Positions 2,144 to 34,968 of a stretch of DNA of 34,968 nucleotides are shown one piece after another. A program made the position numbers and the translations under genes. The DNA is taken from the IMG/VR virus record IMGVR_UViG_3300046009_011680, positions 1 through 34,968 of that record; one strand, 5' to 3'. Each line of letters opens with the position of its first letter. The stretch's first letter is position 1. The notes under the pieces are model-generated. The model did no database searches. It had not been told where the DNA came from and saw only the letters and a program-made list of their open reading frames with translations. Source of the stretch: a virus.

Positions 2144-3025
2144 ATGCAAAACATCATCATAAGTGATACAGATAGTTTATATATAGGTTTAAACCCTATA
2201 CTAGAACATATGCGTTCTCAAGGTATAGATATCAATGACTCAAATAAAAATGATATCATATTAAAGATAGCTACTCAAATTCAAGACGAAGCAAATAATA
2301 ATCTTAACACAATGTGTAAAGATCTATTTAACATTGACCCATCCAAACATTACTTCCAGTTAAAACAAGAAGTAATTGCTACTGGTATTTTAGTTACTGG
2401 TAAGAGAAGATACGCTATGTATGTTACTAATAAGGAAGGTGTCGCTGTTGAAGAGCTAGATATGAAAGGTCTAGAGTTGATGAAGTCTAATATGAATAAA
2501 CGATTCAAAGGATTTGGTGAACAATTTATTAAAGACATTTTATTTGGTAAACCAAAATCTGAATTAGATGCTTCAATTATTAACTTCTATAAATTAATTA
2601 AAACATTAGATCCTAAAGAATTAGGCAAACCAACAGGAGTAAAACAAATCAACTCATATAAAGTACCAGCCCGAGCAGGTGAGATGTTTAGTTCATTTAA
2701 ATTAAAAGCACCAGCCAATACTAAAGCAGCAGTTCGATATAATGACTTACTTAAATTTAAGAGATTAGATAAACAATATGAATCAATTATTGAAGGTGAT
2801 AAAATCTTTATTATTAACTTAAAAGCCAATCCTTATAAATTAGAAACAGTTGGATTACCAAACGCTAAAGTTCCTGATGAAATAGAAAAATTTGTTAAAG
2901 ATTATATTGATATAGATGAAATTTTCGAATCACTATTACTAAACAAATTAAAGGAACTTTATAGTGATTTAAAATGGGAGTTCCCACCTTTGAATGCAAA
3001 TGTTACAAAATTCTTTGCTTTCTAA
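2144..3025 (+). CDS. DNA polymerase family B, C-terminal part (split gene)
   Basis: Protein of 293 residues. It begins almost directly with palm motif C: SDTDSLY, with catalytic Asp8 and Asp10. It continues with the KRRYA segment and a thumb domain comparable to the C-terminal third of T4 gp43, including the GDKIFIINLKANPY stretch near the end. The last residues, KFFAF, resemble the C-terminal clamp-binding peptide of T4 gp43, and the clamp gene follows directly. It lacks motifs A and B, which are in the ORF ending at 958. It has its own promoter (2099-2129) and the leader AAGTT before ATG. Identification is secure; that the two products associate in trans is inference. Confidence 0.95.
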   Translation: MQNIIISDTDSLYIGLNPILEHMRSQGIDINDSNKNDIILKIATQIQDEANNNLNTMCKDLFNIDPSKHYFQLKQEVIATGILVTGKRRYAMYVTNKEGVAVEELDMKGLELMKSNMNKRFKGFGEQFIKDILFGKPKSELDASIINFYKLIKTLDPKELGKPTGVKQINSYKVPARAGEMFSSFKLKAPANTKAAVRYNDLLKFKRLDKQYESIIEGDKIFIINLKANPYKLETVGLPNAKVPDEIEKFVKDYIDIDEIFESLLLNKLKELYSDLKWEFPPLNANVTKFFAF

Positions 3026-11382: not shown

Positions 11383-11388
11383 AAAGTT

Positions 11389-12696: not shown

Positions 12697-13147
12697 AATT
12701 ATAAATTGCCCTAAATCAGGAGGTGATTTGTGTTATGAAACACAAGTTACACCTGAGATAACCAACTGGATGTCTTTATCATGTGGATATTGGACTAACA
12801 GCTTAATGACAGAAGGAAGTGAATTCTATACTCAACAAATGGAAATGTTACCTGAATTATATAAAGCATTGGCTTGGGAGGATAAGAGTACAGGTTTAAT
12901 ATGGTTACCACAAACTATCAATGAACCTAAACAAGGTATGATATTTGCTAATGGGAATGAAGCCTCAAATTGGAAATGGGCAGCTGTTAAAGCAGTCCCA
13001 GTAACTGAAGAAGAAAAACATAAATACCCAATCCCAAAACAACCAGGTAAGTTTTATGAATATAGAATGGATATGACTACTCTTCAACATTTTGATGAAA
13101 GAGACTTTATAGATGCTTTAAGTTATATTGGCTTACTACCAGAATAA
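12689..13147 (+). CDS. Conserved-looking phage protein with degenerate zinc-ribbon start
   Basis: Protein of 152 residues, not an evident sugar enzyme. It opens with CPKSGGDLCY (Cys7, Cys15), followed by SLSCGYWTNS with a further Cys. This looks like a zinc ribbon CPxCGG...C..CG in which some ligands are lost. The body is rich in Trp and acidic residues with no motif I recognise (MEMLPELYKAL, GMIFANGNEASNWKWAAVKA, MDMTTLQHFDERDF). It lies within the glycan operon, overlapping the preceding transferase gene by 8 bases. A promoter for the downstream genes lies in its last codons. Confidence 0.75.
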   Translation: MDKIINCPKSGGDLCYETQVTPEITNWMSLSCGYWTNSLMTEGSEFYTQQMEMLPELYKALAWEDKSTGLIWLPQTINEPKQGMIFANGNEASNWKWAAVKAVPVTEEEKHKYPIPKQPGKFYEYRMDMTTLQHFDERDFIDALSYIGLLPE

Positions 13148-13158
13148 TATTATATTAA
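13128..13158 (+). promoter_or_regulatory. Internal promoter within the glycan island
   Basis: TTG 13128-13130 (in TTGGC), 20-base spacer, TATATTAA 13151-13158, with the next start codon at 13166. It overlaps the end of the 152-aa gene. The same TTGGC and spacing occur at 3799 and 25824. It would give the rest of the island a second start. Confidence 0.5.
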
Positions 13159-13165
13159 TGGTTAT

Positions 13166-13783
13166 ATGAAAATTAGTTATGCGATCACAGTATGTAATGA
13201 GTTAGAAGAAGTAAGTCGTTTACTTAACTTTCTTCATCAACATAAACGACCTGAAGATGAAATTTGTGTTTTATTAGATAAACCAAAAGCATCTCAACAA
13301 TTATTAGATGAACTTTATTATTGGTCATCTAAAGATATAATCATATTAAAAGAAAGTGAATTTAAAGGACACTTTGCTGATTGGAAAAATGAATTAACTA
13401 GAATGTGTTCTGGTAATTATATTTTTCAAATTGATGCTGATGAAATACCTAATGATAATTTAATTGAATCACTTCCATCTATATTAGAAAATAATGTAGA
13501 TGTTGTTTTAGTTCCTAGAGTGAATTTAGTTGAAGGTATAACACCTCAACATATTCAAATGTGGGGTTGGAAACAAAATGAAAAAGGATGGATTCAATGG
13601 CCTGATCCTCAATGGAGAATATTTAAAAATGACCCTGATATTAAATGGAAAAATAAATTACATGAGGTGTTAGACGGTTATAAAACATATTCTAATCTAC
13701 CAGAAATGGAAGAGTATGCTTTATATCATTTTAAAACAATAGAACGTCAAGAAAAACAAAATAATTTTTATAGTAAATTATAA
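13166..13783 (+). CDS. Glycosyltransferase family 2-like (GT-A fold)
   Basis: Protein of 205 residues. The N-terminal SYAITVCNELEEVSRLL is the classical GT2 start. A DxD-type metal/donor site is at 90-92 (QIDADE). The later WPDPQWRIFKND and KLHEVL segments are similar to those of LPS/glycan GT2 enzymes in which a His-Glu pair closes the domain. At 205 residues it contains little beyond the catalytic domain. One base separates it from the methyltransferase gene. Donor unknown. Confidence 0.88.
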   Translation: MKISYAITVCNELEEVSRLLNFLHQHKRPEDEICVLLDKPKASQQLLDELYYWSSKDIIILKESEFKGHFADWKNELTRMCSGNYIFQIDADEIPNDNLIESLPSILENNVDVVLVPRVNLVEGITPQHIQMWGWKQNEKGWIQWPDPQWRIFKNDPDIKWKNKLHEVLDGYKTYSNLPEMEEYALYHFKTIERQEKQNNFYSKL

Positions 13784-13784
13784 G

Positions 13785-14291
13785 ATGGATATACCTAATA
13801 AACCAATGATGAGTGATATAGATATTAACTTATTATCTTCATACTTGTCTCCAAATGATATAATGTTAGAATGGGGATCAGGAGCTAGTACATTATTTTT
13901 CTCTAAATTTGTTAGTAAATATTACTCTATAGAACATGATGCTAGTTGGGCTAACACACTTCATTTTCATCTCCCAGATAATGTTGTATATAATTTAGTG
14001 AAACCTGATTTGTATTTAACTGAGCCTTGGACAAAGTATGATGAAATTAAAAGTTATGTTAACTATATAGATAATTTAAATGTTAAACTTTTTAATAAAG
14101 TTTTTATAGATGGGAGAGGAAGAGGATTTTGTGCTTTAAAAGTATTAAATTATATAAATGAAGATTCTTTAGTTTTTATACATGATTTTTGGACTAGAGA
14201 ATGTAGAGGATATTTTGAGGTATTTAAATATTATGATATAATAGATTATACCACATCTAAAGAAGGATTAATTATCTTAAAAAAGAAATAA
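13785..14291 (+). CDS. Class I SAM-dependent methyltransferase-like protein
   Basis: Protein of 168 residues. The SAM-binding motif I is IMLEWGSGAST (26-36), followed by YYSIEHDASW with an acidic residue after strand 2. KVFIDGRGRGFCAL and LVFIHDFW mark the later strands. The motif layout is like small methyltransferases found in polysaccharide clusters. It probably methylates a sugar or glycan, but the acceptor is unknown, and the short length leaves little acceptor domain. It sits 1 base after a GT2 gene and 2 bases before the next GT. Confidence 0.75.
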   Translation: MDIPNKPMMSDIDINLLSSYLSPNDIMLEWGSGASTLFFSKFVSKYYSIEHDASWANTLHFHLPDNVVYNLVKPDLYLTEPWTKYDEIKSYVNYIDNLNVKLFNKVFIDGRGRGFCALKVLNYINEDSLVFIHDFWTRECRGYFEVFKYYDIIDYTTSKEGLIILKKK

Positions 14292-14293
14292 TT

Positions 14294-15274
14294 ATGACTA
14301 TAGGATACATAGGTTCTTTTCATAGAATTCATGATGAAGAAGGAATAGCTTGTTCTTTAGAAAAACTAAATATTAATGTTGTTAGATTTCAAATTGATGA
14401 TTTTTACTTAAACTATGAAGATAATATAAATAAAATATTTTCTTCTAATTTAGATTTCTTAATGTCCCCAACATGGGAAATACCAAATTCCCAGTATATC
14501 ATAGAAAAATGTAAAAAACATAATATTAAAACAATTACATGGCACCCAGATGGTTATTATAATTATACTATTAGCCATGAACAATATATGGTTATGGGGA
14601 ACCCAAATTGGATAGGTACAAGACATGACTCTGTGATAGCCCCAAAAGAATCTAGAAATTTAGCTTATTGTACTGATTATGTATGTACTCCTGAAGGGTA
14701 TGCTAATGAAATATATAGAGAATTAGGCATTAATCATTTTGTTTTAAGACAAGGTATATATAATGAGTGTTGTTATAAAGGAATACCTAATTACCAACCA
14801 TATGATATTCTGTTTGTAGGAAGTACTTCAAATGCATATCATACTTATAGAAAATCTTTAATTAATTATTTAAAAAATACATATGAAGATAGATTTTTAC
14901 ATATTGGTGAAAATGAAAATGATGTTAGAGGAGATGAGTTAAATAATTTAATAGCATCATGTAAAGTAATTATTGGTGAAAGTATTTTCCATCCTCAATA
15001 TTGGTCTAATAGAATATATGAAACTATAGGAAGAGGTGGGTTTTGTTTACACGCCTATCATGAAGGTATTGAAAATGAATATAAAATAAAAGAACATTTT
15101 GATGTTTTTTATAGGGATGAATCTTTTGAAGTGATAAAAGAAAAAATTGACTATTGGATAAATAATAATGAAGAAAGAGAAAAAATAGCTATTAATGGTA
15201 TGATACATACTCAAAAATATCATACTTTAGCTAATAGAGCAAATCAATTAATTGACATATTAACAAATAATTAA
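14294..15274 (+). CDS. Glycosyltransferase, CgeB-like GT-B type
   Basis: Protein of 326 residues. The N-terminal domain (TIGYIGSFHRIHDEEGI) precedes a C-terminal domain with YDILFVGSTS and YWSNRIYETIGRGGFCLHAY. The latter, with FDVFYRDESFEVIKEKIDYW and a final AxNGMxxTQKYHTLANRANQL, is the pattern of the Glyco_trans_1_2/CgeB-type C-terminal domain. No membrane segments. It is the fourth transferase of the island; specificity is unknown. Confidence 0.82.
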   Translation: MTIGYIGSFHRIHDEEGIACSLEKLNINVVRFQIDDFYLNYEDNINKIFSSNLDFLMSPTWEIPNSQYIIEKCKKHNIKTITWHPDGYYNYTISHEQYMVMGNPNWIGTRHDSVIAPKESRNLAYCTDYVCTPEGYANEIYRELGINHFVLRQGIYNECCYKGIPNYQPYDILFVGSTSNAYHTYRKSLINYLKNTYEDRFLHIGENENDVRGDELNNLIASCKVIIGESIFHPQYWSNRIYETIGRGGFCLHAYHEGIENEYKIKEHFDVFYRDESFEVIKEKIDYWINNNEEREKIAINGMIHTQKYHTLANRANQLIDILTNN

Positions 15275-15279
15275 ATTTT

Positions 15280-16233
15280 ATGAGAAACATTAAAAACACC
15301 AATGTTTGTGTTATAGGAGGAGCTGGATTTTTAGGTTCCCATTTAGTAGACCATCTTATAAATGACCGTAAATGCACAGTACTAATACTGGATAATTTGA
15401 TTACAGGAAAAAAAGAGCATCTTCATCCTGAATCTAAATTTATATGGTTTGATATTAGAGATGATGAACATGAGTTAGCTAAAATATTTACCCAAAATAA
15501 TATTGAATATGTTTTTAATTACGCTGCTGAGCCATATATTCCTGAATGTTTTGAAAGACCAATGCATTTTTTTGATATCAATGCTACTTCTGTTTTAAAA
15601 GTATTGAATGCATGCCAAATAGCTAAAATTAAAGGTTTATTACAAGTTAGTTCAGCAGAAATATATGGTGATATGGTTGGAAAAATTAAAGAATCAGATC
15701 CTGTCACACCCCATTCTACTTATGGGGTTTCAAAAGCAGCAGCTGATGGTTTAGTACAAGTTAGATGGAAAGAAGCTAAAGTCCCAGCTATAGCTATGAG
15801 ACAATTTAACTGTGTTGGTGAAAGAGAAACTCATGAATATGTAATCCCAGAAATTATTTCTCAATTAGCTAAATCCAATGAAATTAAATTAGGTAATAAT
15901 TCATTTAGAGATTTTCAATACGCTGGTGATGCTGTTAAAATGGCTGTTGAGTTACTTGAAAATGGAAAATTTGGTGAAGTATATAATATGGGAAGTGAAG
16001 ATGGTGTAAAAATATATGATTTGGCTAACATAATTGGAAAACTTATGGGTCATGATTCTATTAAGATTGAAGTTGACCAAACAAGAGTTAGACCCTGGGA
16101 AATATGGCATTTACAATCTGATAACACAAAACTATACTCAGTTATAGGTACTAAAACTCCAACTTCATTAGAGGTAGCTTTACAAAAAACAATAGAATAT
16201 TATTATAACAATAATCAAAAATGGGCATTTTAA
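15280..16233 (+). CDS. SDR-family NAD-dependent nucleotide-sugar epimerase/dehydratase
   Basis: Protein of 317 residues, normal for extended SDR enzymes. The dinucleotide-binding motif GGAGFLG is at 13-19 and Asp38 follows strand 2. The Ser of SSAEIYG (124-130) and the Y148-x3-K152 pair form the catalytic triad. It acts on a nucleotide sugar (UDP-, dTDP- or GDP-linked) as a 4-epimerase, 4,6-dehydratase or decarboxylase. Sequence features alone do not distinguish these. It would supply donors to the surrounding transferases. The second SDR gene of the island is at 24824. Confidence 0.92.
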   Translation: MRNIKNTNVCVIGGAGFLGSHLVDHLINDRKCTVLILDNLITGKKEHLHPESKFIWFDIRDDEHELAKIFTQNNIEYVFNYAAEPYIPECFERPMHFFDINATSVLKVLNACQIAKIKGLLQVSSAEIYGDMVGKIKESDPVTPHSTYGVSKAAADGLVQVRWKEAKVPAIAMRQFNCVGERETHEYVIPEIISQLAKSNEIKLGNNSFRDFQYAGDAVKMAVELLENGKFGEVYNMGSEDGVKIYDLANIIGKLMGHDSIKIEVDQTRVRPWEIWHLQSDNTKLYSVIGTKTPTSLEVALQKTIEYYYNNNQKWAF

Positions 16234-16234
16234 T

Positions 16235-16738
16235 ATGAAAGAACCAGTAATGGACCCAAATTTTTGGGCAACTAGATTAAAAAATTCTTCTCAACTAAGA
16301 CATTCAGTATTTTTGTGTAGTGATAATGATTGGGAAGAGATAAATATACATCATTATCATATGTTAACTAAATATATAGATGTGAAAAAAGATAAGGTTT
16401 TAGAAGCAGGATGTGGATATGGTAGATGGTCTCCCTTATTTAAAAATTATACTGGGGTGGACATATCACCAGATTTTATTAATTTAGCTAAGGATAAATT
16501 TCCTATGCATAAAAATAATTTTATATGTGAAGATTTAAAAAAACTACCTTTTAATGATAAAGTTTTTGATTGGTGTTTTACTGTGTCAACAAAAGCTATG
16601 ATAATTAGAGAGGTAGATTTAAACACTTGGATTGAAATGGAAAATGAATTAAAACGAGTAGCTAAAAAAGTATTAATTTTAGAATATTCATATAGTTTAC
16701 CTTCTAATACTAATAGAGACAATGTTGAAATTATATGA
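16235..16738 (+). CDS. Class I SAM-dependent methyltransferase (Methyltransf_11 type)
   Basis: Protein of 167 residues. Motif I is VLEAGCGYGR (55-64), Asp76 in TGVDIS ends strand 2, CEDLKKLPFNDKVFDWCFTV carries motifs II-III, and LKRVAKKVLILEYS is the later strand. It is shorter than usual (about 200-250) and ends soon after strand 5, so it may be a compact or trimmed form. Probable sugar or glycan methylation. One base after the SDR gene, overlapping the next gene by 4. Confidence 0.82.
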   Translation: MKEPVMDPNFWATRLKNSSQLRHSVFLCSDNDWEEINIHHYHMLTKYIDVKKDKVLEAGCGYGRWSPLFKNYTGVDISPDFINLAKDKFPMHKNNFICEDLKKLPFNDKVFDWCFTVSTKAMIIREVDLNTWIEMENELKRVAKKVLILEYSYSLPSNTNRDNVEII

Positions 16739-17601
16739 AAATAGCTTTTTTTACAATTGGGGGACAAATTTTAGGTCCTATAGAAAATGAATTAAAAAAA
16801 CAAAATATAGAATTATTAATAAATACTTGTGATGATAGTTGTGATTTAATTTATTTATCAACACTTAGTGCTACTTCTGAAGCATACTCAGCGGCTCAAT
16901 CATATCCTGATATCCCGGTAATAGTATACAATTGGGATCAATATAAATGGTATAAATCACAAACTGGATATAAATGGGATATGTTTAATGAATTACAAAA
17001 ACAAAGTATAGAAATTTGGACTCCAAGTAAGGCTGTTAATTTAAGAGTAGAAGAATTTTTAGGATTAGGTCATAAATGTTATATTATAAAATCATTTGCT
17101 CGATTATTTGATTATAATAAAGAAGAAATTAAAGATAATAGATATGTGTTTCAAGTTGTTAGAAACTATAACTCTGACCCAAATTTTTATTGGGCTAAGC
17201 AAGCATGTGAAGAATTAAATATTCCTCTTTATACAAATGATAATCATCATAGATCAGAAGAAGAATTCCAAAAATTTATAGCTGAGTCTACTCTACTACT
17301 ATGCCATTATGATGAAGCATCTACAGGTGGTTTAACATTAATAGAAGGACATAAGTTAGGAAAACCAGTATTAGTGTGTGATTCTCCATATATGGGGGCT
17401 AAAGATTATTTTGGAGATAGAGCTATATATTTTGAAAGAAATAACTATGAAGATTTTAAAAACAAATTAAAAGATACTTTTGATAACCCACCTAAATATG
17501 ATATATTAGAATGTGAAGAATTTACTAATCAATATGTTATTGATAATATGGTAAAAAATATGGTTGATAGATTTAATTATTTAAAAGACAATAATGGATA
17601 A
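16735..17601 (+). CDS. Glycosyltransferase, GT-B type
   Basis: Protein of 288 residues. The N-terminal half begins MKIAFFTIGGQILGPIENEL and the C-terminal half contains CHYDEASTGGLTLIEGHKLGKPVLV, close to the E-x7-E donor motif of GT4 enzymes. GDRAIYFERNNYEDFKNKL follows, as is normal for the last part of the domain. It is shorter than most GT4 enzymes (about 350-400), mainly in the N-terminal domain. ATGA overlap with the methyltransferase and an 8-base overlap (ATGGATAA) with the next gene. Confidence 0.82.
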   Translation: MKIAFFTIGGQILGPIENELKKQNIELLINTCDDSCDLIYLSTLSATSEAYSAAQSYPDIPVIVYNWDQYKWYKSQTGYKWDMFNELQKQSIEIWTPSKAVNLRVEEFLGLGHKCYIIKSFARLFDYNKEEIKDNRYVFQVVRNYNSDPNFYWAKQACEELNIPLYTNDNHHRSEEEFQKFIAESTLLLCHYDEASTGGLTLIEGHKLGKPVLVCDSPYMGAKDYFGDRAIYFERNNYEDFKNKLKDTFDNPPKYDILECEEFTNQYVIDNMVKNMVDRFNYLKDNNG

Positions 17602-18043
17602 ATTAAGTAATATATTAAATTATCAAACTATAGCAGATTGTAAATTTGGTAAAGATGTTAAACTCATGCAACCATATAACATATATGGTTGTGAATTTGG
17701 AGATGGATGTTTTGTAGGACCATTTGTAGAAATACAAAAAAATGTAAAAATAGGAACTAAAACTAGAATAAGTTCACATACTTTTATTTGTGAGTATGTA
17801 ACTATTGGAGATAATTGTTTTATAGGACATGGAGTGGTATTCACAAATGATAAATTTACAGATGAAAACTCTACATTATATCCCACAAAAATAGGAAATA
17901 ATGTAAAAATAGGGTCTAACTCTACTATTTTACCTGTGTCTATTGGAGATAATACTATTATAGGAGCAGGAACTGTAGTAACTAAAGATATTCCTCCTAA
18001 TAGTATAGCATATGGTAACCCAATTAAAATAAAATCAATATGA
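17594..18043 (+). CDS. Hexapeptide-repeat (left-handed beta-helix) acyltransferase
   Basis: Protein of 149 residues with repeated [I/V]G-x4 rungs (VKIGTKTRIS, VTIGDNCFIGHG, TKIGNNVKIGS, VSIGDNTIIGAG), ending GTVVTKDIPPNSIAYGNP, the standard end of trimeric LbH O- or N-acetyltransferases. The size fits sugar N-acetyltransferases of the WbpD/FdtC kind, which act on amino sugars made by DegT aminotransferases. Two DegT genes follow at 19372 and 20565, so N-acetylation of an amino-deoxy sugar is a reasonable inference, but the exact sugar is unknown. The protein is soluble and should be cytoplasmic. Confidence 0.9.
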   Translation: MDKLSNILNYQTIADCKFGKDVKLMQPYNIYGCEFGDGCFVGPFVEIQKNVKIGTKTRISSHTFICEYVTIGDNCFIGHGVVFTNDKFTDENSTLYPTKIGNNVKIGSNSTILPVSIGDNTIIGAGTVVTKDIPPNSIAYGNPIKIKSI

Positions 18044-19038
18044 AAATAGGAACTATAAATTATGCTACTCACTCTGGATTAGGGATATTAGTTAAAGAAT
18101 TTTATGATAATAAGATAATAACTGATATATTGGTGGTAGAACATTTTAAGTATACTAATCACCATAATGAATGGTACCCAAATTCAAAATCAATTAAATA
18201 CAGTAATATTGACATTAATATTATTATAGAATTTATTAAATCAATAGATATATTATTCTTATTTGAAACCCCATTCTCAGATCAAGTTATACCATTAGCT
18301 AAAACTTATAATAAACCTATAGTTATGATGCCAATGTATGAATGGAGTTCATTCCCATTAGATGTGGATTTATTTATAGTGCCTAGTCAGTTAGATTATG
18401 ATTATTATAAACAAATGTATCCTGATCATAGAATAGTTTTATTACCTGTTCCTTCAAACTCTAATATAAAATGGAAGTTAAAAGAAAAGGCTTTAACTTT
18501 TATGCATAATGGAGGAAATGGGAGTCATTATGATAGAAATGGTACTTTATCTTTAATTGAAGCTTTACCTTATATAAAAAGTAATTGTAAAATTAAAATT
18601 AAAGCTCAAAAATTAAATTTACCATATATAAATGATTCTAGAGTAGAAGTAATAAATGAAAATTTACCATTTGATAAACTTTGGGAAGATGTAGATGTTT
18701 TTATATTTCCTGAAAGATTTAATGGGTTATCATTACCATTACAAGAAGCTCATGCTGCTGGATGTTTAGTTATAGCTGGGAACAGAGATCCCATCAATAC
18801 ATGGTTGCCTAATAAACCACTAATTAATCCTATTGGCTATAATGAATACTCATTTGTTCCAAATGTACCCTTTAAATCAGCTATATATGACCCAAAAGAT
18901 ATAGCGGCTAAAATAGATGAATTTTATGGTACTGATATAACCCATTACTCATTAATGGGTAAATATTGGGGTGAAGGGAATAGTTGGGAAATTCTAAAAT
19001 TTAGATACTTAGATTTAATATATTCATTAAAAAAATAA
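18040..19038 (+). CDS. Glycosyltransferase, GT-B family 4-like
   Basis: Protein of 332 residues. Starts MKIGTINYATHSGLGILVKEF with the acceptor loop. The C-terminal domain has VDVFIFPERFNGLSLPLQEAHAAGCLV, which is the donor-binding E-x7-E region, and GKYWGEGNSWEILKFRYLDLI at the end. ATGA overlap with the acetyltransferase gene. Substrate unknown. Confidence 0.82.
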   Translation: MKIGTINYATHSGLGILVKEFYDNKIITDILVVEHFKYTNHHNEWYPNSKSIKYSNIDINIIIEFIKSIDILFLFETPFSDQVIPLAKTYNKPIVMMPMYEWSSFPLDVDLFIVPSQLDYDYYKQMYPDHRIVLLPVPSNSNIKWKLKEKALTFMHNGGNGSHYDRNGTLSLIEALPYIKSNCKIKIKAQKLNLPYINDSRVEVINENLPFDKLWEDVDVFIFPERFNGLSLPLQEAHAAGCLVIAGNRDPINTWLPNKPLINPIGYNEYSFVPNVPFKSAIYDPKDIAAKIDEFYGTDITHYSLMGKYWGEGNSWEILKFRYLDLIYSLKK

Positions 19039-19043
19039 AACTT

Positions 19044-19370
19044 ATGGAAGACTATTTCTTTGTACCTAAAGTATTTGAAAATACATTAGATGTTAATTTA
19101 ATATATAGAGTAGGACCTAATTTAACATGCGAAATTATTGATATTGTTTCTAATAAACCATATGTGGGAAATGGTTCTATAGTTTATAAAGAATTTGAAG
19201 TATTTGCTAAAACACAATATGATGTAAAAAATATGTATGCTTTTACTCGTTTTTCAAACATAAAAGCTCTTAATTGGTATCTCAAAATGGGTTTTTCAGC
19301 TACATGGATACCTAATTTTTATTTTGATGAACCTGAATATAAGGCTATAGTATTAACTAAAAGTATTTAA
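19044..19370 (+). CDS. GNAT-like acetyltransferase, C-terminal part only
   Basis: Protein of 108 residues. The second half (EVFAKTQYDVKNMYAFTRFSN, then IKALNWYLKMGF) matches the GNAT signature of an asparagine followed by an Ala-Leu-x-x-Tyr helix and GF. The acetyl-CoA pyrophosphate loop (Q/RxxGxG/A) cannot be found, and a full GNAT domain is about 150 residues. It may be a reduced form, a remnant, or non-catalytic. The N-terminal 40 residues are of no recognised kind. It is one base before the first DegT gene. Confidence 0.6.
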   Translation: MEDYFFVPKVFENTLDVNLIYRVGPNLTCEIIDIVSNKPYVGNGSIVYKEFEVFAKTQYDVKNMYAFTRFSNIKALNWYLKMGFSATWIPNFYFDEPEYKAIVLTKSI

Positions 19371-19371
19371 A

Positions 19372-20343
19372 ATGAAATTTTTAGAATTAGAAAAAACATA
19401 CGCTGATTATTTAAATGTAGCTGGGGCAGTTACATGCAATACAGGAACAGCTGCTTTACATTTAGCTTTAGAAGCTCTTAAATTACCAAAAGATAGTGAA
19501 GTAATAGTCCCTGAGTTTACTATGGTAGCCACAGCTTGGGCTGTTTATTATTCTAGATTAACCCCAATATTTGTAGATTGTGATGATAATATGTTAATTG
19601 ATTTAGATTTAGTTGAAAAAGCAATTACTCCAAAAACAAAAGTTTTAATGGTGACTCATGTTTATGGAAGAGTAGTTAACATGACTAAAGTAATGGAATT
19701 AGCTAAAAAATATAATTTAAGAGTTATTGAAGACGCAGCTGAGGCTCATAATGCTACTTGGGAAAATAAATTAGTAGGTACTTTTGATATTGGATGTTTT
19801 AGTTTTTATAAAAATAAAATTATACACGGTGAAGAAGGTGGATTAGTAACTAGTAATGATCTAAATTTTTTATCAACAGTTAGAGACATGAAATCAATGT
19901 CATTTGGTAAAGAACATAATTATCAACATAATCAAATTGGATTTAATTATAGAATGACAGATAGTCAAGCTAAATTAATATTAAAGAGTTTTAATAAATT
20001 AGAAAAAAATATAAATCATAGAAAAAAAATTGAAAAAACATATGATAAATATTTAAATAAGTCTTTATTATTACCTAATAGAGAAGTAGTATGGGTTTAT
20101 GATATAAAAGTTCCTAAGGAAAAAAAGGACGGTTTAGTTAATTATTTAGTATCTCAAGGAATTGATGCTAGACATAGTTTTAAACCTATGTCAATTCAAT
20201 CTCCTTTTAATTATTCTTTAAAAGAAAATTTAAAAGCCTTTGGATTCTCAAAAAATATATGTTATCTTCCATCTGGTGAAAATATAACTATAAAGAAAGC
20301 TAAATATATATCTAAATTAGTAAACCAATTTTTATCTAAATAA
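19372..20343 (+). CDS. DegT/DnrJ/EryC1 sugar aminotransferase (N-terminally short)
   Basis: Protein of 323 residues. PLP-dependent fold type I features: NTGTAALHLAL (23-33, phosphate-binding section), EDAAEAH with Asp121 for the pyridine nitrogen, and SFYKNKI with Lys149 as the PLP Schiff-base lysine, followed by GEEGG. The SFYxNKII-GEEGG form is like perosamine-synthase-type 4-aminotransferases. Compared with the usual 365-390 residues it lacks about 30 N-terminal residues: the protein starts near the FExxFAxY segment. Expected substrate: a 4-keto- or 3-keto-6-deoxy nucleotide sugar. The N-terminal lack may affect activity. Operon position supports a role in donor supply. Confidence 0.88.
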   Translation: MKFLELEKTYADYLNVAGAVTCNTGTAALHLALEALKLPKDSEVIVPEFTMVATAWAVYYSRLTPIFVDCDDNMLIDLDLVEKAITPKTKVLMVTHVYGRVVNMTKVMELAKKYNLRVIEDAAEAHNATWENKLVGTFDIGCFSFYKNKIIHGEEGGLVTSNDLNFLSTVRDMKSMSFGKEHNYQHNQIGFNYRMTDSQAKLILKSFNKLEKNINHRKKIEKTYDKYLNKSLLLPNREVVWVYDIKVPKEKKDGLVNYLVSQGIDARHSFKPMSIQSPFNYSLKENLKAFGFSKNICYLPSGENITIKKAKYISKLVNQFLSK

Positions 20344-20556
20344 ATGAATCTAAACTCATCAGTAAATGAAATATGTGGTGATCTTGTAACACAAATTATC
20401 CATTTTGTAGGTGGAGAAAAACGCACATATAAAAATATAGAATCTAAAACAATTAGACAAGGTCAATTCACTAAATTTAAACAAAAAGATGGACCTTGGA
20501 TTATGATTAATGATAAAAATGTACTTTGTATAGAAGTTTTTGAACAAAATAAATAA
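20344..20556 (+). CDS. Small hypothetical protein between the two DegT genes
   Basis: Protein of 70 residues, directly abutting the first DegT stop codon. No family recognised. Predicted as short beta strands (TQIIHFVGGEKRTYKNI, PWIMINDKNVLCIEVFEQN). It could be a small beta-rich protein of the phage or a degraded part of something longer. Nothing ties it to sugar metabolism except position. Confidence 0.65.
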   Translation: MNLNSSVNEICGDLVTQIIHFVGGEKRTYKNIESKTIRQGQFTKFKQKDGPWIMINDKNVLCIEVFEQNK

Positions 20557-20564
20557 ATAAAAAT

Positions 20565-21695
20565 ATGAAAATTAGAGAAAAAATGTTACCTGTGCTTCAA
20601 CCTTATGGTGATCAGAGTGATATAGATGCTGTAACAGAAGTAATAAAATCAGGATGGTGGGGAAAAGGACCTAAAGTAGAACAATTTGAAAAGGAGTTTG
20701 CTGAGTTAGTAGGGGCAAAATATGCTATAGCTGTCACTAGTAATTCTCATGGTCAAGATTTGATAATGAAAGCATTAGATATTAAAGATGGTGACATTAT
20801 TAATCCAACTATATCATTTATGGCCACAGCTATGATACCAATTTGGAATAATTGTACTACTAATGTTGTAGATGTTGACCCAGTAACAATGTGTATTGAT
20901 CCAGAAGATGTTCGCAAACATATAACTCCTAATACTAAAGCTGTTATCGCTGTTAATCAAGCTGGGGTACCCGCTCCTATTAAAGAAATTAGAAAATTCT
21001 ATAACGGATTAATTATTGAGGACTGTGCTCATAGTTGTTACACCCCAGGCGCTGGCCAACAAGGAGATATAGCAGTATGGTCATTTCAAGCTGTAAAAAC
21101 AATGCCATCAGGTGATGGAGGAATGATAACTCTTAATGATGAGGAACTATATCATAAATTAAAAGAAATGACATGGTTTGGAGTATCATCTACCTTTTCT
21201 AGAGTAAATAAAAAAGATAATGTAACTGGTCGTCCTGGATATACTTGGGATTATGAAGTAGATAAAATAGGATATAAATGTTATATGATTGATCTAACAG
21301 CAGCGTTATGTTTATCTCAACTAAAAAAATTACCAGCTATGATGGATTGGAGAAGACATATTCAAGAAAGATACAACAATGAGTTATGTGAACAAGTTAC
21401 TCGCCCACCATACTCAGATACAGTTCAATATTATTGTGCTAAAGTTCCTCATGAGCATCGAGATACAATAATTGATTATTTAGCAAGTAAAAACATTCAC
21501 ACATCAGTCCATTTTAAACCACTTCATAAATATGAAATTATTAAAAAACATATGACCCATCCTAATAGAACATTTGAAGTAGCTGATCATGAATGGTTAG
21601 GGTTAGTATCTTTACCTGTACATTCAGCAATGAGTGAAGATGATATAGATTATGTTATTTATTGGGTTAATCAATATTTTAAAGAAAATAATTAA
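20565..21695 (+). CDS. DegT/DnrJ/EryC1 sugar aminotransferase (full length)
   Basis: Protein of 376 residues with the complete N-terminus (GKGPKVEQFEKEFAELVGAK, 33-52). PLP pocket: TSNSHGQDL replaces the more common SSGTAAL, Asp153 in IEDCAHS, and Lys178 in SFQAVKTMPSGDGGM. It would transfer an amino group to a keto nucleotide sugar. Differences from the gene at 19372 in the active-site segments suggest another substrate, not a recent duplication. A full-length enzyme close to a short one may compensate for it or act in a parallel pathway. Confidence 0.92.
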   Translation: MKIREKMLPVLQPYGDQSDIDAVTEVIKSGWWGKGPKVEQFEKEFAELVGAKYAIAVTSNSHGQDLIMKALDIKDGDIINPTISFMATAMIPIWNNCTTNVVDVDPVTMCIDPEDVRKHITPNTKAVIAVNQAGVPAPIKEIRKFYNGLIIEDCAHSCYTPGAGQQGDIAVWSFQAVKTMPSGDGGMITLNDEELYHKLKEMTWFGVSSTFSRVNKKDNVTGRPGYTWDYEVDKIGYKCYMIDLTAALCLSQLKKLPAMMDWRRHIQERYNNELCEQVTRPPYSDTVQYYCAKVPHEHRDTIIDYLASKNIHTSVHFKPLHKYEIIKKHMTHPNRTFEVADHEWLGLVSLPVHSAMSEDDIDYVIYWVNQYFKENN

Positions 21696-21699
21696 GAGT

Positions 21700-22440
21700 A
21701 TGGACAATCATGTAATATGTATGATATTTAATTTACAATATGAGGGAAAACCACTCCCTCATGAAGGTAACCCAAGTTGGTTAAGAAATAGATTAGATAT
21801 TTTTAAAAAATATTGTTTAAATGCTTTTGCTAATCAAACAGATAAAGAATTTCATTTACTATTATACTGCGACTCAGAAACTCCAGATCCATATAGAAGT
21901 GAATTATTAGAATTAGAACATAATTATGATTTTATTTCTATAGCTTGGGATTTATCTAAAACATATGGAGATGAATATAGTGAAGAAAAATTCAAACAAT
22001 CTATATTAGATAACTATAAACGTATAAGAAAAAATGATAATGAAGAGGTAATATGTAGCCGCTTTGAAAACGATGACATCCCAGATATTAGATATAATGA
22101 GTTTGTAAAATTAGCTCATCAACATTATAATATTATTTCCTTAGGTAAGGGATACTATTGGGATATAAATACTAACCAATTTTTAGACTCAATATTCCCA
22201 ACAGGTCCATTTATTAGTGTTAAGTCTACATTAGATAATTTTATATCACCTTTAGAAGATGAACATCATAATTATATAACTCAAAGAGGAGGAACACCCA
22301 TTATAACTGAGGATAATTTATGGATTCAATTAGTACATGGAGATAATTTATGGAATAGATTAGACAGAATGCCAGGTCAATTATTCCAACCAAATATTGA
22401 AGAATTAAAACAATGTTTTGCTTTAAATAATGTTTTATGA
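21700..22440 (+). CDS. Putative rhamnosyltransferase-type glycosyltransferase (GT-A)
   Basis: Protein of 246 residues, starting at ATG 21700, 5 bases after the DegT stop. An upstream in-frame ATG (21652) would overlap DegT and add 16 atypical residues. The pattern RLDIFKKYCLNAFANQTDKEFHLLLYCD, then ICSRFENDDIPD with Asp125-Asp126, is that of the putative rhamnosyl transferase family (PF11316), in which the metal/donor site is R-x-D-x-D-D. Donor specificity is inferred from the family name only. ATGA overlap with the next gene. Confidence 0.8.
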   Translation: MDNHVICMIFNLQYEGKPLPHEGNPSWLRNRLDIFKKYCLNAFANQTDKEFHLLLYCDSETPDPYRSELLELEHNYDFISIAWDLSKTYGDEYSEEKFKQSILDNYKRIRKNDNEEVICSRFENDDIPDIRYNEFVKLAHQHYNIISLGKGYYWDINTNQFLDSIFPTGPFISVKSTLDNFISPLEDEHHNYITQRGGTPIITEDNLWIQLVHGDNLWNRLDRMPGQLFQPNIEELKQCFALNNVL

Positions 22441-23333
22441 TTTATATAGGTACACACATAATGCCTTGGGAAATAGGTGAGTTTAGACATCAAGTAAGAC
22501 TTCATAGATTAACTATGATTAATTTATCTAAAGATGAATTATCTAATATTACATTAATTCCTACTTTAAATTTAAATGATGATATAATTGATTGGAGTAA
22601 TTCTAAATTATCTAAAGAATACTATATTGAACATTTCAAAATCAGTTGTAAAACATTAGAAGATATAATCAATATTAAACCTAGAATAGGAAATATAACA
22701 TCTACAACTGATGCTTTAAAAAAGAATATTGATGATATATTAACAGATGATGATTTTTATCTTTGGATAGACCCAGACATTAGTTATCCTTATACTTACT
22801 GGAATTCAATTATAGAAACTTTAAATATTGTAAAAGATAAATCTGAATATTTTATTATATCTCCTTCTACAACAAAATTGTGGGATAGTTCATGGGATGT
22901 ATTAGTTGATTCATCTCAAATTAATCTTCCATATGGAGATGAAGGATGGTACAATTCAGATTTTGAAAAATATTTTTATTTAGATAGTCCTAATATATCT
23001 TATACCCCATATATTAAATTTGGAGGCGGATTCGGAAATCTATTCTCAGCTAATATATTAAGGTTATTTGGAATACCTGAAGAATATGTTTTATATGGAG
23101 GAGTAGACACATATATAATGAAAGGAGCTGATGTTTTAAACAAACAAGGAAAATTAATACAATATAAATTAGAAAATTTAATTACAATACAAGATTTTAA
23201 ATTCTCAGATAAAGAAATGTATAAAAATTTTACACCAATTCTTTTAAATAAAGATAAACAAAGAGAATTAAATGAAAAAATTAATAATATATATCAAAAA
23301 TCAACTAAAGAATTATTAAATAAATTAAAATAA
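22437..23333 (+). CDS. Glycosyltransferase-like protein, GT-A fold
   Basis: Protein of 298 residues. It has the N-terminal start IYIGTHIMPW and a DPD metal-site candidate at 112-114 (YLWIDPDISYPYTYW). The segment FGGGFGNLFSANILRLFGIPEEYVLYGGVDTYIM is like the second half of GT2-related domains, where a Gly-rich section and a D/E pair close the active site. No close family named. Position among other transferases supports the assignment. Overlaps by one base with the next gene. Confidence 0.65.
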   Translation: MIYIGTHIMPWEIGEFRHQVRLHRLTMINLSKDELSNITLIPTLNLNDDIIDWSNSKLSKEYYIEHFKISCKTLEDIINIKPRIGNITSTTDALKKNIDDILTDDDFYLWIDPDISYPYTYWNSIIETLNIVKDKSEYFIISPSTTKLWDSSWDVLVDSSQINLPYGDEGWYNSDFEKYFYLDSPNISYTPYIKFGGGFGNLFSANILRLFGIPEEYVLYGGVDTYIMKGADVLNKQGKLIQYKLENLITIQDFKFSDKEMYKNFTPILLNKDKQRELNEKINNIYQKSTKELLNKLK

Positions 23334-24034
23334 TGAGTTTAAATATAAAAGTTTTTGTTCGACATTGTAATTTCTCATCTAATTCAGTAGGTAAAAATCG
23401 ACCTGATTGGTTTTCAAGAAAAAAATGTTGGGATAATCTTAAACAAACTGTAGACTTAAATACTGAGATTAATGTTGTGTTTGATGGTGACCCTAATGAA
23501 GATCATTTTTTATATAATGATAAAGAAGGATACAATTTAATATGTAAACAAGGAGGGAATGATGGTCAGTCATTTTTAAATTTATTAAATTATGTCTATG
23601 AACAAAATATTAATGATGAGACAATATTATACTTTTTAGAAGATGATTACTACCACAAACCAGGATGGACTAATATTTTAAGAGAAGGTTTTAAATATAT
23701 AGGAGTAGATTATATTACTTTATATGATCATAATGATAAATATTTTCTTCAAGCTTATGAAAATTTACAAAGTAAAATTATAGTTACTCCTTCTATCCAT
23801 TGGAGAACTACACCCTCAACTACTAACACATATGCTATGTTGGCTAAAACATTTAAAAAACATTTTAAAATTCATAAAGAGTATTGTGATTTACAAAAAG
23901 GATACACTAGAGACCATGATAAATTTATTAGACTTTGGAATGAAGGATCTAATTTAATATCTTGTATACCAGGTTATTCAACTCATTGTGAAACTGAGTA
24001 TTTATCACCTTGTGTAAAATGGAATGAAATATGA
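23333..24034 (+). CDS. Glycosyltransferase-like protein, GT-A fold
   Basis: Protein of 233 residues. The core motif ILYFLEDDYYHKPGW (98-112) is a DxD-type donor/metal site in a GT-A context. The C-terminal part has TTPSTTNTYAMLAKTF, RDHDKFIRLW and several Cys (THCETEYLSPC). No membrane or signal segment. It is probably a glycosyltransferase, but the match is to the fold type and not to a named family. Overlaps neighbours by 1 and 4 bases. Confidence 0.65.
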   Translation: MSLNIKVFVRHCNFSSNSVGKNRPDWFSRKKCWDNLKQTVDLNTEINVVFDGDPNEDHFLYNDKEGYNLICKQGGNDGQSFLNLLNYVYEQNINDETILYFLEDDYYHKPGWTNILREGFKYIGVDYITLYDHNDKYFLQAYENLQSKIIVTPSIHWRTTPSTTNTYAMLAKTFKKHFKIHKEYCDLQKGYTRDHDKFIRLWNEGSNLISCIPGYSTHCETEYLSPCVKWNEI

Positions 24035-24822
24035 TTAGTTTAATTATCCCGACATATAGAAATCCTGATTACTTAAACATATGTTTAAAATCAGCTATTG
24101 AAAACCAAACTTATAAAAATGAGATAATAGTAGTTATAGATGGTTATTATGAAGAAAGTAAAGAAGTACTTGAAAAATACCATAATGATATTATAGTATT
24201 AGATTTAGGTGAAAATCAAGGTATGCAAACTGCTCTTAATTTAGGAGTGATGAATGCTTCTAATGAAATAATTTGTATTATTAATGATGATAATGTTTTA
24301 TCTAAAAACTGGGACATAATCATTAAACAAGAGTACCACCCAAACTCAGTTTTAACTATTAATCAAATTGAACCTATAGGACCAGGTATATTTAATTTCC
24401 CAATTAAGGACTTAGGTAAACATCCTAATGAGTTTAAATATGAGGAATTTCTTCAATATGAGTTAACATTAAGGAAAGATTTAATAACATTAGATGGAGG
24501 TATATTTCCATTTGTTATTAGTAAAAAAAATTATATGATTGTGGGAGGGTTTGATACATTATATCAATCACCATTTATTTGCGATTGGGACTTTTTCTTA
24601 AAGTTAGATTTAAATAATATAGGTTTTTCTCGTACTCATAAACTTCATTTCTATCATTTTGGAAGTGCAGCTACTAAGAAAGGAAAAGAAGGAGATAAAT
24701 TCAAATCTACTGAACATCCCGCGGCTCAGATGTTTTATTATAAATGGGGAATAACACCTCAATTATTTGAAAATAATAGCCATAGACCAAAAGGAAATAC
24801 AATTAAAGGAATACAATTTTAA
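24031..24822 (+). CDS. Glycosyltransferase family 2 (GT-A fold)
   Basis: Protein of 263 residues. Classical GT2 start MISLIIPTYRNPDYLNICLKS, ENQTYKNEIIVVIDG, then the donor/metal motif NDDN at 85-88, and a later GGFDTLY plus DWDFFLKLDL section corresponding to the catalytic-base region. Inverting transferase by family; donor and acceptor are unknown. Starts in an ATGA overlap with the preceding gene. One base separates it from the epimerase. Confidence 0.92.
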   Translation: MISLIIPTYRNPDYLNICLKSAIENQTYKNEIIVVIDGYYEESKEVLEKYHNDIIVLDLGENQGMQTALNLGVMNASNEIICIINDDNVLSKNWDIIIKQEYHPNSVLTINQIEPIGPGIFNFPIKDLGKHPNEFKYEEFLQYELTLRKDLITLDGGIFPFVISKKNYMIVGGFDTLYQSPFICDWDFFLKLDLNNIGFSRTHKLHFYHFGSAATKKGKEGDKFKSTEHPAAQMFYYKWGITPQLFENNSHRPKGNTIKGIQF

Positions 24823-30945: not shown

Positions 30946-31124
30946 AAAAACTAATTTTATTCTTAATGGCGAGTATTATTTTAATATCTTGTTCAACACA
31001 AAAAGGTTATAATTATTCTAAACATCGTAAAAGTGGAAACCAAATGAGTAGATCCACTCAACGAGTTAATAAACATAATTACAACCAGTTAAATCATAAA
31101 TGTTCTCCTAAAAAACGTAGATAA
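30942..31124 (+). CDS. Small lipoprotein (lipobox LISC)
   Basis: Protein of 60 residues. Signal sequence MKKLILFLMASIILIS with lipobox L14-I-S-C17 gives a diacylglyceryl-modified Cys17 after processing. The mature part of 44 residues is basic and rich in Asn, Ser and Lys with a second Cys (HKCSPKKRR) and lacks an obvious fold. It lacks the acidic residues after Cys that mark surface lipoproteins in Bacteroidota. Candidate phage outer-membrane lipoprotein; an o-spanin role is possible but not shown. Shares one base with the ClpP gene. Confidence 0.75.
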   Translation: MKKLILFLMASIILISCSTQKGYNYSKHRKSGNQMSRSTQRVNKHNYNQLNHKCSPKKRR

Positions 31125-31696
31125 TGACTAGTAGAAAAAATAGATATTTTGATAGAGAAGACCAATTTAGAAGTATTGTTTTAAGTAATGATATTGATAA
31201 TGAAAGTGTTGAAGAGGTAATTCAATTTATCTTAGATGCTAATGAATATGATGATGAACAAGAGTCAGCTATTAAAGATTTTGAACGTAAACCAATTAAA
31301 TTAATAGTTAATAGTTTTGGTGGAGTAATTTATGATGGATTTGCATTAATAGGTGTAATTGAAAATTCAACCACACCAATTCATACTTATTGTTATGGGT
31401 ATGCTATGTCAATGGGATTACCAATATTTACTTCTGGTCATAAACGAATAGCGAGTAAGTACGCTACATTCATGTATCATGAAGCTTTAAATAACTACCC
31501 TCAATTTGATAAATTATCTATTATTAAAGATGATTTAGATGAATGTAACCGTATAATGAAACAATATGATAATATTTTATTATCATTATCAAATTTAATT
31601 CAAAAACAATTAGATGATGTTAAAAAATCAAGACGTGATTGGTACTTTACAGCTGAAGAAGCATTAAAATATGGAATTGTTGATGAAATTATTTAA
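31124..31696 (+). CDS. ClpP-like serine protease with intact catalytic triad
   Basis: Protein of 190 residues (E. coli ClpP, 207). The ClpP fold is readable: IKLIVNSFGGVIYDGFALIG (oxyanion-loop region), YAMSMG with nucleophile Ser96, MYHE with His119, and RDWYFTAEEALKYGIVDEI with Asp172, which aligns with E. coli Asp185. The N-terminal axial loop is atypical and acidic. Possible roles: phage prohead maturation or host protein degradation, with or without a Clp ATPase. No ATPase partner is seen in the window. Shares its first base with the lipoprotein gene. Confidence 0.92.
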   Translation: MTSRKNRYFDREDQFRSIVLSNDIDNESVEEVIQFILDANEYDDEQESAIKDFERKPIKLIVNSFGGVIYDGFALIGVIENSTTPIHTYCYGYAMSMGLPIFTSGHKRIASKYATFMYHEALNNYPQFDKLSIIKDDLDECNRIMKQYDNILLSLSNLIQKQLDDVKKSRRDWYFTAEEALKYGIVDEII

Positions 31697-33444: not shown

Positions 33445-33475
33445 TTGGCCTTCGGGCCATTCTTTATTATATTTA
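33445..33475 (+). promoter_or_regulatory. Promoter overlapping the terminator
   Basis: TTG 33445-33447, 20-base spacer, TATATTTA 33468-33475; next start codon at 33502, leader AAGTT. Confidence 0.65.
33446..33467 (+). terminator. Rho-independent terminator, UUCG type
   Basis: Stem TGGCC / GGCCA (33446-33450, 33455-33459) with TTCG loop, then ATTCTTTATT. Confidence 0.78.
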
Positions 33476-33501: not shown

Positions 33502-33828
33502 ATGAGCAAATCAGTCACATTATCAGGTAATCAAGAATTACAATTCGTTACAGACAATTGGGAAAAAACAATCACAGTTTATTTATTTGATACATTGAGT
33601 GATACTCGAGTAACATTAACTGAGTTCTCTAATGGTAGATGGAATTCAAAAACAATTTCTCATTTAGATAAATTCTTTGAATTAATTAAAATTAATCCAA
33701 AGATTAAAATAGCAATGAAGAAAGCATTAGGTGAGTTAAGAACTGAAACACCAGTAGATACATTCTCAACTACAATGAAATGTTTTAGACGTCGTTTTGT
33801 GATTCAAATTAAAAAATTAATAAAATGA
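33502..33828 (+). CDS. Hypothetical protein
   Basis: Protein of 108 residues from ATG 33502. An in-frame ATG at 33445 lies in the terminator-promoter module and is rejected. N-terminal beta-rich part (SVTLSGNQELQFVTDNWEKT), then a helical basic C-terminal part (FRRRFVIQIKKLIK). No family recognised. ATGA overlap with the next gene. Confidence 0.75.
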   Translation: MSKSVTLSGNQELQFVTDNWEKTITVYLFDTLSDTRVTLTEFSNGRWNSKTISHLDKFFELIKINPKIKIAMKKALGELRTETPVDTFSTTMKCFRRRFVIQIKKLIK

Positions 33829-34370
33829 AGACATTAATAATACACCCCTCAGACAATTCAACTGCTTTCTTAAAACCAATTTATGAAGGTATAGAAGATA
33901 AAACAGTTATCACTCATGGTAAAAGACGAGATGAAATAATTGAGTTAATTGAAAACCATGATAGAGTAATGATGATGGGACATGGTTCACCATCAGGTTT
34001 ATTTGGAATTGGTTTTGAAAGAATGTTTGTAATTGACAATGGGTTAGTTGAATATTTAAATAAAAAAGAAAACAATGTGTTTATCTGGTGTAACGCAGAT
34101 AGATTTGTTGAACGCTATAAATTAAAAGGATTCTATAGTGGAATGTTTATTAGTGAGGTAGGAGAGGCTTATTATTGTGGGTTACCAAAGACTCCTCAAT
34201 CAGTAGTAGATGAGTCAAATGATGAGTTTGCTAGAATGTTAGGTGAATGCTTTACTGATAAAAAACAATTAAATGAGTCTTATAATATTATTAAAAATAG
34301 TTATGGTGAATTAGCTAAAAATAATATTGTAGCAAAATATAATTATGAACGTTTATATTTAGCGTTATGA
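33825..34370 (+). CDS. Putative caspase-fold (CHAT/metacaspase-like) protein
   Basis: Protein of 181 residues. A hydrophobic strand followed by MGHGSPSG (His53) and, 36 residues on, another strand followed by WCNAD (Cys89) match the order of the His-Gly and Cys dyad in caspase-like clan CD proteins (strand-HG, strand-xCxx). N-terminal MKTLIIHPSDNSTAFLKP would be the first strand and loop. The C-terminal region FYSGMFISEVGEAYYCGLPK is of unknown type. If active it would be a cysteine protease-like enzyme. Other explanations are a Rossmann-like phage protein in which the dyad spacing is chance. Overlaps its neighbours by 4 bases on each side. Confidence 0.6.
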   Translation: MKTLIIHPSDNSTAFLKPIYEGIEDKTVITHGKRRDEIIELIENHDRVMMMGHGSPSGLFGIGFERMFVIDNGLVEYLNKKENNVFIWCNADRFVERYKLKGFYSGMFISEVGEAYYCGLPKTPQSVVDESNDEFARMLGECFTDKKQLNESYNIIKNSYGELAKNNIVAKYNYERLYLAL

Positions 34371-34968
34371 AAACAATAGTGATAGGAGATATTCATGGGC
34401 GTAGTATCTGGAAAGATATTGTCGCCCAAGAACAAGCGGATCAAGTTATCTTTATAGGTGATTACTTTGATAGTTTTAATATTGGAAGTACTGAACAGCA
34501 ATTTAATTTTAAAGAGATAATTGAGTTTAAAGAGAAAAGTGAGTGTGAAGTAATTATGTTGATTGGTAATCATGATTACCATTACTACCCAGGTGGTGAA
34601 ACATACTCTGGTTATCAACATGGTGCTGCACCTGCAATTCGACAGTTACTCCAAGAAAATAAACACCATCTACAAATGTGTTACCAATTAGATAATATCT
34701 TATTTACACATGCTGGTATTGGGTGGGATTGGCTATCATATCAAAACAGATATGAACCAGGAGTAGACTCAGATGCAATAGCTGATTTTATAAATGCTAT
34801 TTGGGAATATCAGCCTAATCGTTTTATGTTTTATGGAATTGATCCTTATGGTAATTCTAAAACACAAACACCAATTTGGATTCGCCCTCAAGCATTGATA
34901 GCTGGTAACCAAGATACATTTTTAAAAGAAGAGTATATTCAAGTAGTAGGTCATACTGCTGTTAATTC
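34367..34968 (+). CDS. Calcineurin-like metallophosphatase (3' partial)
   Basis: Open from ATG 34367 (ATGA overlap with the preceding gene) to the right window edge; 200 codons seen. Motifs of the Ser/Thr phosphatase / bis(5'-nucleosyl) phosphatase group are in order: GDIHG (7-11), GDYFD (31-35), GNHD (67-70), then FTHAG and VVGHT near the window end. These Asp, His and Asn residues bind the two metal ions. Similar to lambda-type and ApaH-like phosphatases; substrate unknown. The 3' end lies outside the window. Confidence 0.9.
   Translation, partial: MKTIVIGDIHGRSIWKDIVAQEQADQVIFIGDYFDSFNIGSTEQQFNFKEIIEFKEKSECEVIMLIGNHDYHYYPGGETYSGYQHGAAPAIRQLLQENKHHLQMCYQLDNILFTHAGIGWDWLSYQNRYEPGVDSDAIADFINAIWEYQPNRFMFYGIDPYGNSKTQTPIWIRPQALIAGNQDTFLKEEYIQVVGHTAVN

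Follow-up and report, generated by a model that had tools for sequence, protein, structure and literature searches.

Caspase-fold proteases are protein-cutting enzymes that are tied to cell death and serve as effectors of bacterial antiviral immunity. Is such an enzyme also encoded by a virus of bacteria, and at which step of the infection would it act? This question is raised by an open reading frame near the end of a virus record of 34,968 bases, analyzed at its full length (hereafter the window), for which a first-pass annotation had proposed a caspase fold with a His-Cys dyad and a function in counter-defense or lysis timing.

The window encodes GroEL, many glycosyltransferases and a protein matching family B DNA polymerases and, because of this gene content, probably derives from a large phage genome. 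The phage-encoded GroEL (Cpn60) gene is located at 4472-6088, near a DNA polymerase piece at 2144-3025, and a long run of glycosyltransferases together with a DegT-type aminotransferase (9949-24822) constitutes a glycan-making region. Furthermore, a gene for a ClpP-like protease matching PHROG head maturation proteases (31124-31696) is placed among small unknown genes and not among capsid genes.

The Caspase-Like Gene and Its Flanking Genes

The following features were recorded at the locus:

33446..33459, + strand: terminator-like hairpin, 5' of the three overlapping genes (consensus match only)
33502..33828, + strand: preceding ORF of 108 aa, no function assigned (4-nt overlap with the caspase-like ORF)
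33825..34370, + strand: predicted cysteine protease of caspase fold, CHAT/separase-like, 181 aa (ORF call, family, models and structure matches)
34367..34966, + strand: calcineurin-like metallophosphoesterase ORF, cut by the window end (4-nt overlap with the caspase-like ORF)

The caspase-like ORF starts with ATG, comprises 181 codons and, as judged from its sequence, is under purifying selection (dN/dS of 0.08-0.18 for the window protein versus four near relatives). Its stop and the start of the following ORF, which matched the Pfam family Metallophos (8e-12), share four nucleotides (ATGA). This arrangement fits a single operon of caspase-like gene and metallophosphatase, as had been proposed in the first-pass annotation. 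Considering all ten phosphatase-bearing loci, the phosphatase adjoins the caspase-like gene in only six and is found 8 genes upstream in three and 13 genes upstream in one. The window's clade includes 12 loci in which position -1 is occupied by the 108-aa ORF, which had no match in Pfam. One terminator-like hairpin was observed compared to 0.4 expected, and promoters near the gene gave no signal (15 versus 11.5 +/- 2.7 in shuffles).

Sequence Searches and Distribution of the Family

Searches of the window protein against Pfam, PHROG, NCBIfam and PADLOC returned zero families at E <= 1. The cut-off of Pfam CHAT (PF12770) was not reached by the window protein, and this family was absent among those matched by 31 members. 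Likewise, Pfam Peptidase_C14 (PF00656, caspase/metacaspase) matched neither the window protein nor the 31 members. Profile comparison of the family with CHAT and C14 yielded probabilities of <1%, versus 63% for CHAT against C14 itself, and the alignment profile searched against PDB sequences returned chance rows only (best E 0.88). Since no sequence-profile link to CHAT or C14 was obtained, the relation of the family to clan CD is based on the predicted fold and the dyad. Rows for the NCBIfam S12 ribosomal protein (8/31 members, best E 0.0018) and a PADLOC LmuA match (1/31 members, E 0.012) were taken as chance.

Relatives of the window protein were numerous in viral contigs. Scanning with the window protein itself identified 74 loci on contigs of up to 335 kb, and scanning with a wider alignment identified 278 relatives; the 80 best were retained, on contigs reaching 401 kb. 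A scan of genome contigs yielded 30 loci, mostly from Bacteroidota metagenome assemblies. Accordingly, the family is spread widely in large phages, and it is not restricted to them, as solitary copies exist in Bacteroidota genomes, too. One genome search was positive for 4/198 genomes, two being the starting genomes and two apparently contigs already included in the 30 genome-contig loci. No family match was found among 72,556 plasmid records. Within 50,697 named phage records, one was positive, an unverified 6-kb gut scaffold that was not counted as phage because its other genes do not look phage-like by eye. One CHAT and one C14 domain searched against named phages as single queries, which constitutes weak evidence, gave no match at 1e-5.

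Predicted Structure and Structural Matches

Modelled with AlphaFold (pLDDT 90.7, pTM 0.87), the window protein comprises six main strands, and a hairpin separates strand 3 from helix 3. Its elements are arranged in the order strand 3-6, helix, strand 26-29, helix, strand 47-52 and His53, followed by short strands 58-60 and 68-70, a helix, strand 85-88 and Cys89, and finally a helix, strand 102-105, helices and strand 177-180. A second model was computed for the chromosomal member L100 (pLDDT 94.6), the two modelled proteins being approximately 35% identical. The caspase/haemoglobinase fold was described as a core of strands 1-4 and helices 1-3 in which a small section of sheet is inserted after strand 3 and before helix 3, and in caspases the catalytic His ends strand 3 and the Cys ends strand 4 (PMC4357240, excerpts). 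The core layout given in these excerpts was found in the element order of both predicted models. Moreover, the ORF and the placements of His53 and Cys89 reported in the first-pass annotation were confirmed: in the window model, hydrophobic strands 47-52 and 85-88 end directly before H53 and C89, respectively, corresponding to the dyad placement of clan CD.

Structural alignment of the window model by means of VIA-align yielded SAVED-CHAT as best match (Z 12.2, 157 residues, 3.0 A), followed by gingipain RgpB (10.2), MALT1 (9.7) and caspases and legumain (about 9), with flavodoxin-like folds coming after clan CD, from Z ~8.5. For the L100 model, SAVED-CHAT (11.5), DdvA (10.6), separase (10.3), RgpB (9.8) and TPR-CHAT (9.2) were obtained. 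Foldseek rows 1-5 of the L100 model were all SAVED-CHAT (E 1.8e-5 to 1.7e-4, prob 1.0). The window model returned no Foldseek row at E <= 1e-3 against the PDB, RcsB, dehydrogenases and flavodoxins outranking legumain (rank 44); against viral models, its best match was an unnamed viral protein (E 3.9e-4).

The dyads published for TPR-CHAT and human separase are H585/C627 and H2003/C2029, respectively (PMC9729208, excerpts). The aligned spans of TPR-CHAT (chain 534-714) and the L100 model (1-180) are near-equal in length, and the dyad is located at offsets of 51/93 in TPR-CHAT versus 53/91 for H54/C92 of L100, counted from the span end-points and not from a residue alignment. In human separase (aligned span 1946-2115), the corresponding end-point offsets are 57 and 83.

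Judging from the models, the protein very probably adopts the caspase/haemoglobinase (clan CD) fold with a His53/Cys89 dyad and has its nearest counterparts in the CHAT and separase domains. The fold and dyad proposed in the first-pass annotation thus stand as a prediction, the models of two members ranking clan CD enzymes on top. Neither a missing caspase-type sheet nor a wide separation of the two residues, which had been named as refuting outcomes, was seen in the models at the level of strand order.

Conserved Residues and Predicted Catalysis

Three conserved positions of the predicted active site were located on the DNA as follows:

33852..33863, + strand: Asp10-Thr13 codons, in the loop that follows strand 1; D and T unchanged in 132/132 sequences (alignment; model for the loop position)
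33981..33983, + strand: codon for the predicted general base, His53, at the C-terminus of strand 3 (alignment and model)
34089..34091, + strand: codon for the predicted nucleophile, Cys89, at the C-terminus of strand 4 (alignment and model)

His53 is embedded in the motif MMGHGSPSG and Cys89 in FIWCNAD. Residues D10, T13, G52, H53, G54, C89 and G106 are invariant in 132/132 distinct sequences, composed of 68 tree-alignment rows and 64 new ones. His53 and Cys89 are constant in 68/68 rows, including very distant ones and four operon-type homologues having little else in common, as well as across 41 distinct phage sequences drawn from 44 of the 74 viral loci and the window. The search patterns of the 74-locus viral scan included neither His53 nor Cys89. 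Patterns of the genome-contig scan and the wider viral scan contained GH(G) and not Cys89, so that the His53 count was partly selected for and the Cys89 count was not.

The window protein is probably an active protease. Cys89, which ends strand 4, would attack the peptide bond with His53, which ends strand 3, acting as base, and Asp10 and Thr13 may shape the substrate pocket or orient the dyad; it is suggested that they represent third catalytic or substrate-pocket residues. The N-terminal HPxD motif recalls metal-binding motifs. A metal site was rejected, since His7 varies (Ile or Tyr in two operon-type members), whereas D10, H53 and C89 are retained.

Phylogeny and Operon-Type Homologues

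The phylogenetic tree leaves out 9/30 genome-contig loci, namely duplicates (L084, L099) and fragments or broken frames (L095, L096, L102-L106). Within the tree, operon-type members cluster together (support 99/98). Solitary copies of phage and chromosomal origin are interspersed with each other, and switches are few (4 and 5 changes versus 20.7 and 18.6 in shuffles). The deeper branching order is unsafe owing to long branches, and given the very large distance between operon-type and phage-type members, the two need not share a role.

The operon type was recognized by searching the family profile against 395 genomes of the phylum, of which three were positive. Two single-contig matches (E 1.6e-14 and 1.8e-10) are each encoded by the last gene after a C5 DNA methyltransferase, a HATPase_c_3 ATPase and a receiver-like protein. 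Comparison of the family with one of the operon-type proteins by hhalign gave 95% probability, aligning GHG on GHG and Cys on Cys. Further searches identified the same operon in two more genomes. In the reverse direction, the ATPase profile (E <= 1e-50) detected nine operons in 8/390 genomes of one class. A caspase-like last gene is present in four of these nine, one of them new, and the other five feature instead a receiver of about 300 aa with a C-terminal RNxxxH motif (read by eye). The fifth caspase-type operon, the G967 locus, is outside the count of four. In all five caspase-type operons, genes overlap or are separated by <=17 nt. The operons are listed below:

L182, 6043-11156: four-gene operon (C5 DNA methyltransferase, HATPase_c_3 ATPase, short receiver-like protein, caspase-like protein)
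L183, 1772-6854: same four genes
L191, 5694-10619: same four genes
L193, 1508-6684: same four genes
L207, 2870-8049: same four genes
L208, L209, L210, L211, L212: sister operons lacking the caspase-like gene, longer RNxxxH receiver

The four-gene Bacteroidota operon looks like an uncharacterized defense system, and homologues ending such C5-methyltransferase/GHKL/receiver operons link the family to defense-like systems. The alternative endings suggest that the output module was exchanged between operons, being caspase-like in some and HEPN-like in others. RNxxxH was described as a motif of HEPN RNases (PMC3710099, excerpts); a Pfam scan of four long receiver proteins gave no HEPN match. The ATPase gene is distributed over two frames at L182 7413-9913 and L212 4489-6703 and is possibly decayed or naturally split. 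Candidate G747 (E 3.3e-5) was dropped because no ORF with a GHG motif was seen in its region.

With these findings, the phage-encoded setting described in the first-pass annotation holds for large phages but does not cover the full range of the family, as homologues are also carried by Bacteroidota chromosomes and C5-methyltransferase/GHKL/receiver operons. Regarding viruses, no operon-type homologue was confirmed in viral contigs, and the partner ATPase was absent from five virus records (the window's and four with a relative), for which the search had no positive control.

Proposed Function and Alternative Explanations

Taken as a whole, the data are best explained, with somewhat better than even confidence, by a compact clan CD cysteine protease of phage-host conflict. 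The family is carried by large phages, occurs as solitary copies in Bacteroidota chromosomes and, in the form of divergent homologues, takes the last slot of C5-methyltransferase/GHKL-ATPase/receiver operons. In the sister operons, an RNxxxH (HEPN-like) domain that is joined to the receiver protein apparently takes this slot. The phage copy would most likely cut one or few host proteins during infection, in the course of host takeover or counter-defense, although the confidence placed in this host-directed role falls a little short of even.

Gene neighborhoods in phages vary by clade and name no substrate. In the window's clade, 13 loci have an endolysin-like gene (PG_binding_1 and glycoside hydrolase 19) located 2-4 genes downstream of the caspase-like gene. 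This neighborhood favors an alternative explanation, namely that the protease targets proteins of the phage itself or sets the time of lysis, by processing a virion or lysis protein late in infection. However, lysis-gene neighbors are restricted to this one phage clade; other phage clades instead have, in 27 loci, a DnaA-C-like gene within three genes, adjoining in most. Moreover, solitary copies reside in bacterial chromosomes, where no virion is made, and the window has its separate ClpP-like protease of head-maturation type. As a general account, processing of phage proteins is thus unlikely; lysis timing is possible for the window's clade, but not as the common role of the family. In other phage clades, a protein of about 350 aa without Pfam match is encoded near the caspase-like gene in 35 loci (L069 3060-4115 and 34 others); it precedes the caspase-like gene by 1-3 genes and is a possible partner or substrate.

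The homologues in C5-methyltransferase/GHKL/receiver operons also offer a plausible host target for a mimic. According to this explanation, the phage copy would be a protease-fold decoy or regulator that binds and blocks either the substrate or the receiver partner with which a caspase-like effector of the host works, catalysis being secondary. A pure decoy could lose its dyad, yet H53 and C89 never vary in the 132 rows. The long branch leading to the operon-type relatives makes surface mimicry doubtful, and many phages with the caspase-like gene may meet hosts devoid of such operons, given that the ATPase was detected in 8/390 genomes of one class. A decoy function is therefore improbable. 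An alpha/beta protein of flavodoxin- or Rossmann-like type with another function, in which His53 and Cys89 are structural or metal ligands, would agree with the HPxD motif and with the flavodoxins, dehydrogenases and RcsB leading the Foldseek rows of the window model, but is very improbable considering that clan CD enzymes give the best alignments of both models, spanning their full length, that CHAT protease occupies the top Foldseek rows of L100 and that two operon-type members have Ile or Tyr in place of the His of HPxD, while D10, H53 and C89 are retained.

Extending the protease of phage-host conflict one step further, the family may represent a new class of caspase-type effectors, which serves in Bacteroidota operons as an infection-triggered killer replacing the HEPN-like domain and is carried by large phages in a trimmed solitary version as weapon or countermeasure. 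This extension is speculative and, at present, rather doubtful.

Comparison with Known Systems

SAVED-CHAT (PDB 8tl0) represents the best structural match of both models, and the CHAT domain of TPR-CHAT (Craspase, PDB 7y85) shares with the family the His-then-Cys order and near-equal dyad offsets, as far as its dyad is described in the excerpts cited above. In contrast to CHAT proteins, family members contain no sensor or TPR domain, comprise only about 180 residues, display neither a Pfam CHAT match nor profile similarity and are also phage-encoded. Separase, gingipain R, caspases and legumain (families C50, C25, C14 and C13, respectively) correspond to the present family in strand order and dyad position (VIA Z ~8-10), with low identity where aligned (6-18% in the rows shown). 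Unlike in these enzymes, no activation cleavage site was identified in the family.

Pairs of receiver and ATPase genes beside C5 methyltransferases were described previously, Vsr or HNH nucleases being encoded close to the receiver (PMC8011034, excerpts). These paraMORC/RR-like/C5-methyltransferase loci consist of the same parts as the operons reported here, i.e., C5 methyltransferase, HATPase_c_3 ATPase and receiver-like protein. They differ in their Vsr/HNH neighbors, and the words 'caspase' and 'protease' are absent from the text of PMC8011034. The operon partners matched HATPase_c_3 and C5 methylase, whereas the operon proteins scanned against PF19191/PF19192 (HEF_HK, Response_reg_2) gave no match at E <= 0.1; for this reason, the operons were filed as paraMORC-like only. 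Two operon-type members searched against PADLOC matched 0 families. In the literature searched, in which subscription papers were mostly not included, no report of an operon with exchangeable protease or HEPN-like output was found. The operon link points to a concrete, uncharacterized candidate defense system in which these outputs would be exchangeable.

Giant viruses of eukaryotes such as medusavirus encode putative metacaspases as possible regulators of host cell death (PMC6450098, excerpts). These are virus-encoded caspase-fold proteins, as is predicted here, but belong to the metacaspase family of eukaryotic viruses, whereas the present family is separate and occurs in viruses of bacteria. 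Within the same literature, again mostly without subscription papers, no report of a phage-encoded family of this kind was found, and the main text of a jumbo-phage survey (PMC7824862) contains neither 'caspase' nor 'CHAT'. A phage family with an invariant dyad provides a testable case of bacterial viruses using a defense-type enzyme, as giant eukaryotic viruses appear to do.

Chromosomal Copies

Several genome-contig loci are chromosomal-looking by eye, with S-adenosylmethionine synthetase, RNA methyltransferase, NADAR and Fic neighbors, the latter two assigned by Pfam. One solitary chromosomal copy (L086 2517-6174) is flanked by NADAR, Fic and toxin-antitoxin-like genes. A copy is present in 4/4 genomes of the genus to which one Bacteroidaceae genome belongs, one of these copies being interrupted by a stop. 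Broken or partial copies were also observed in bacterial genome contigs (L095 5001-5444, L104 3046-3351, L106 3235-3378 and G576:C22), as if the caspase-like gene were frequently gained and lost.
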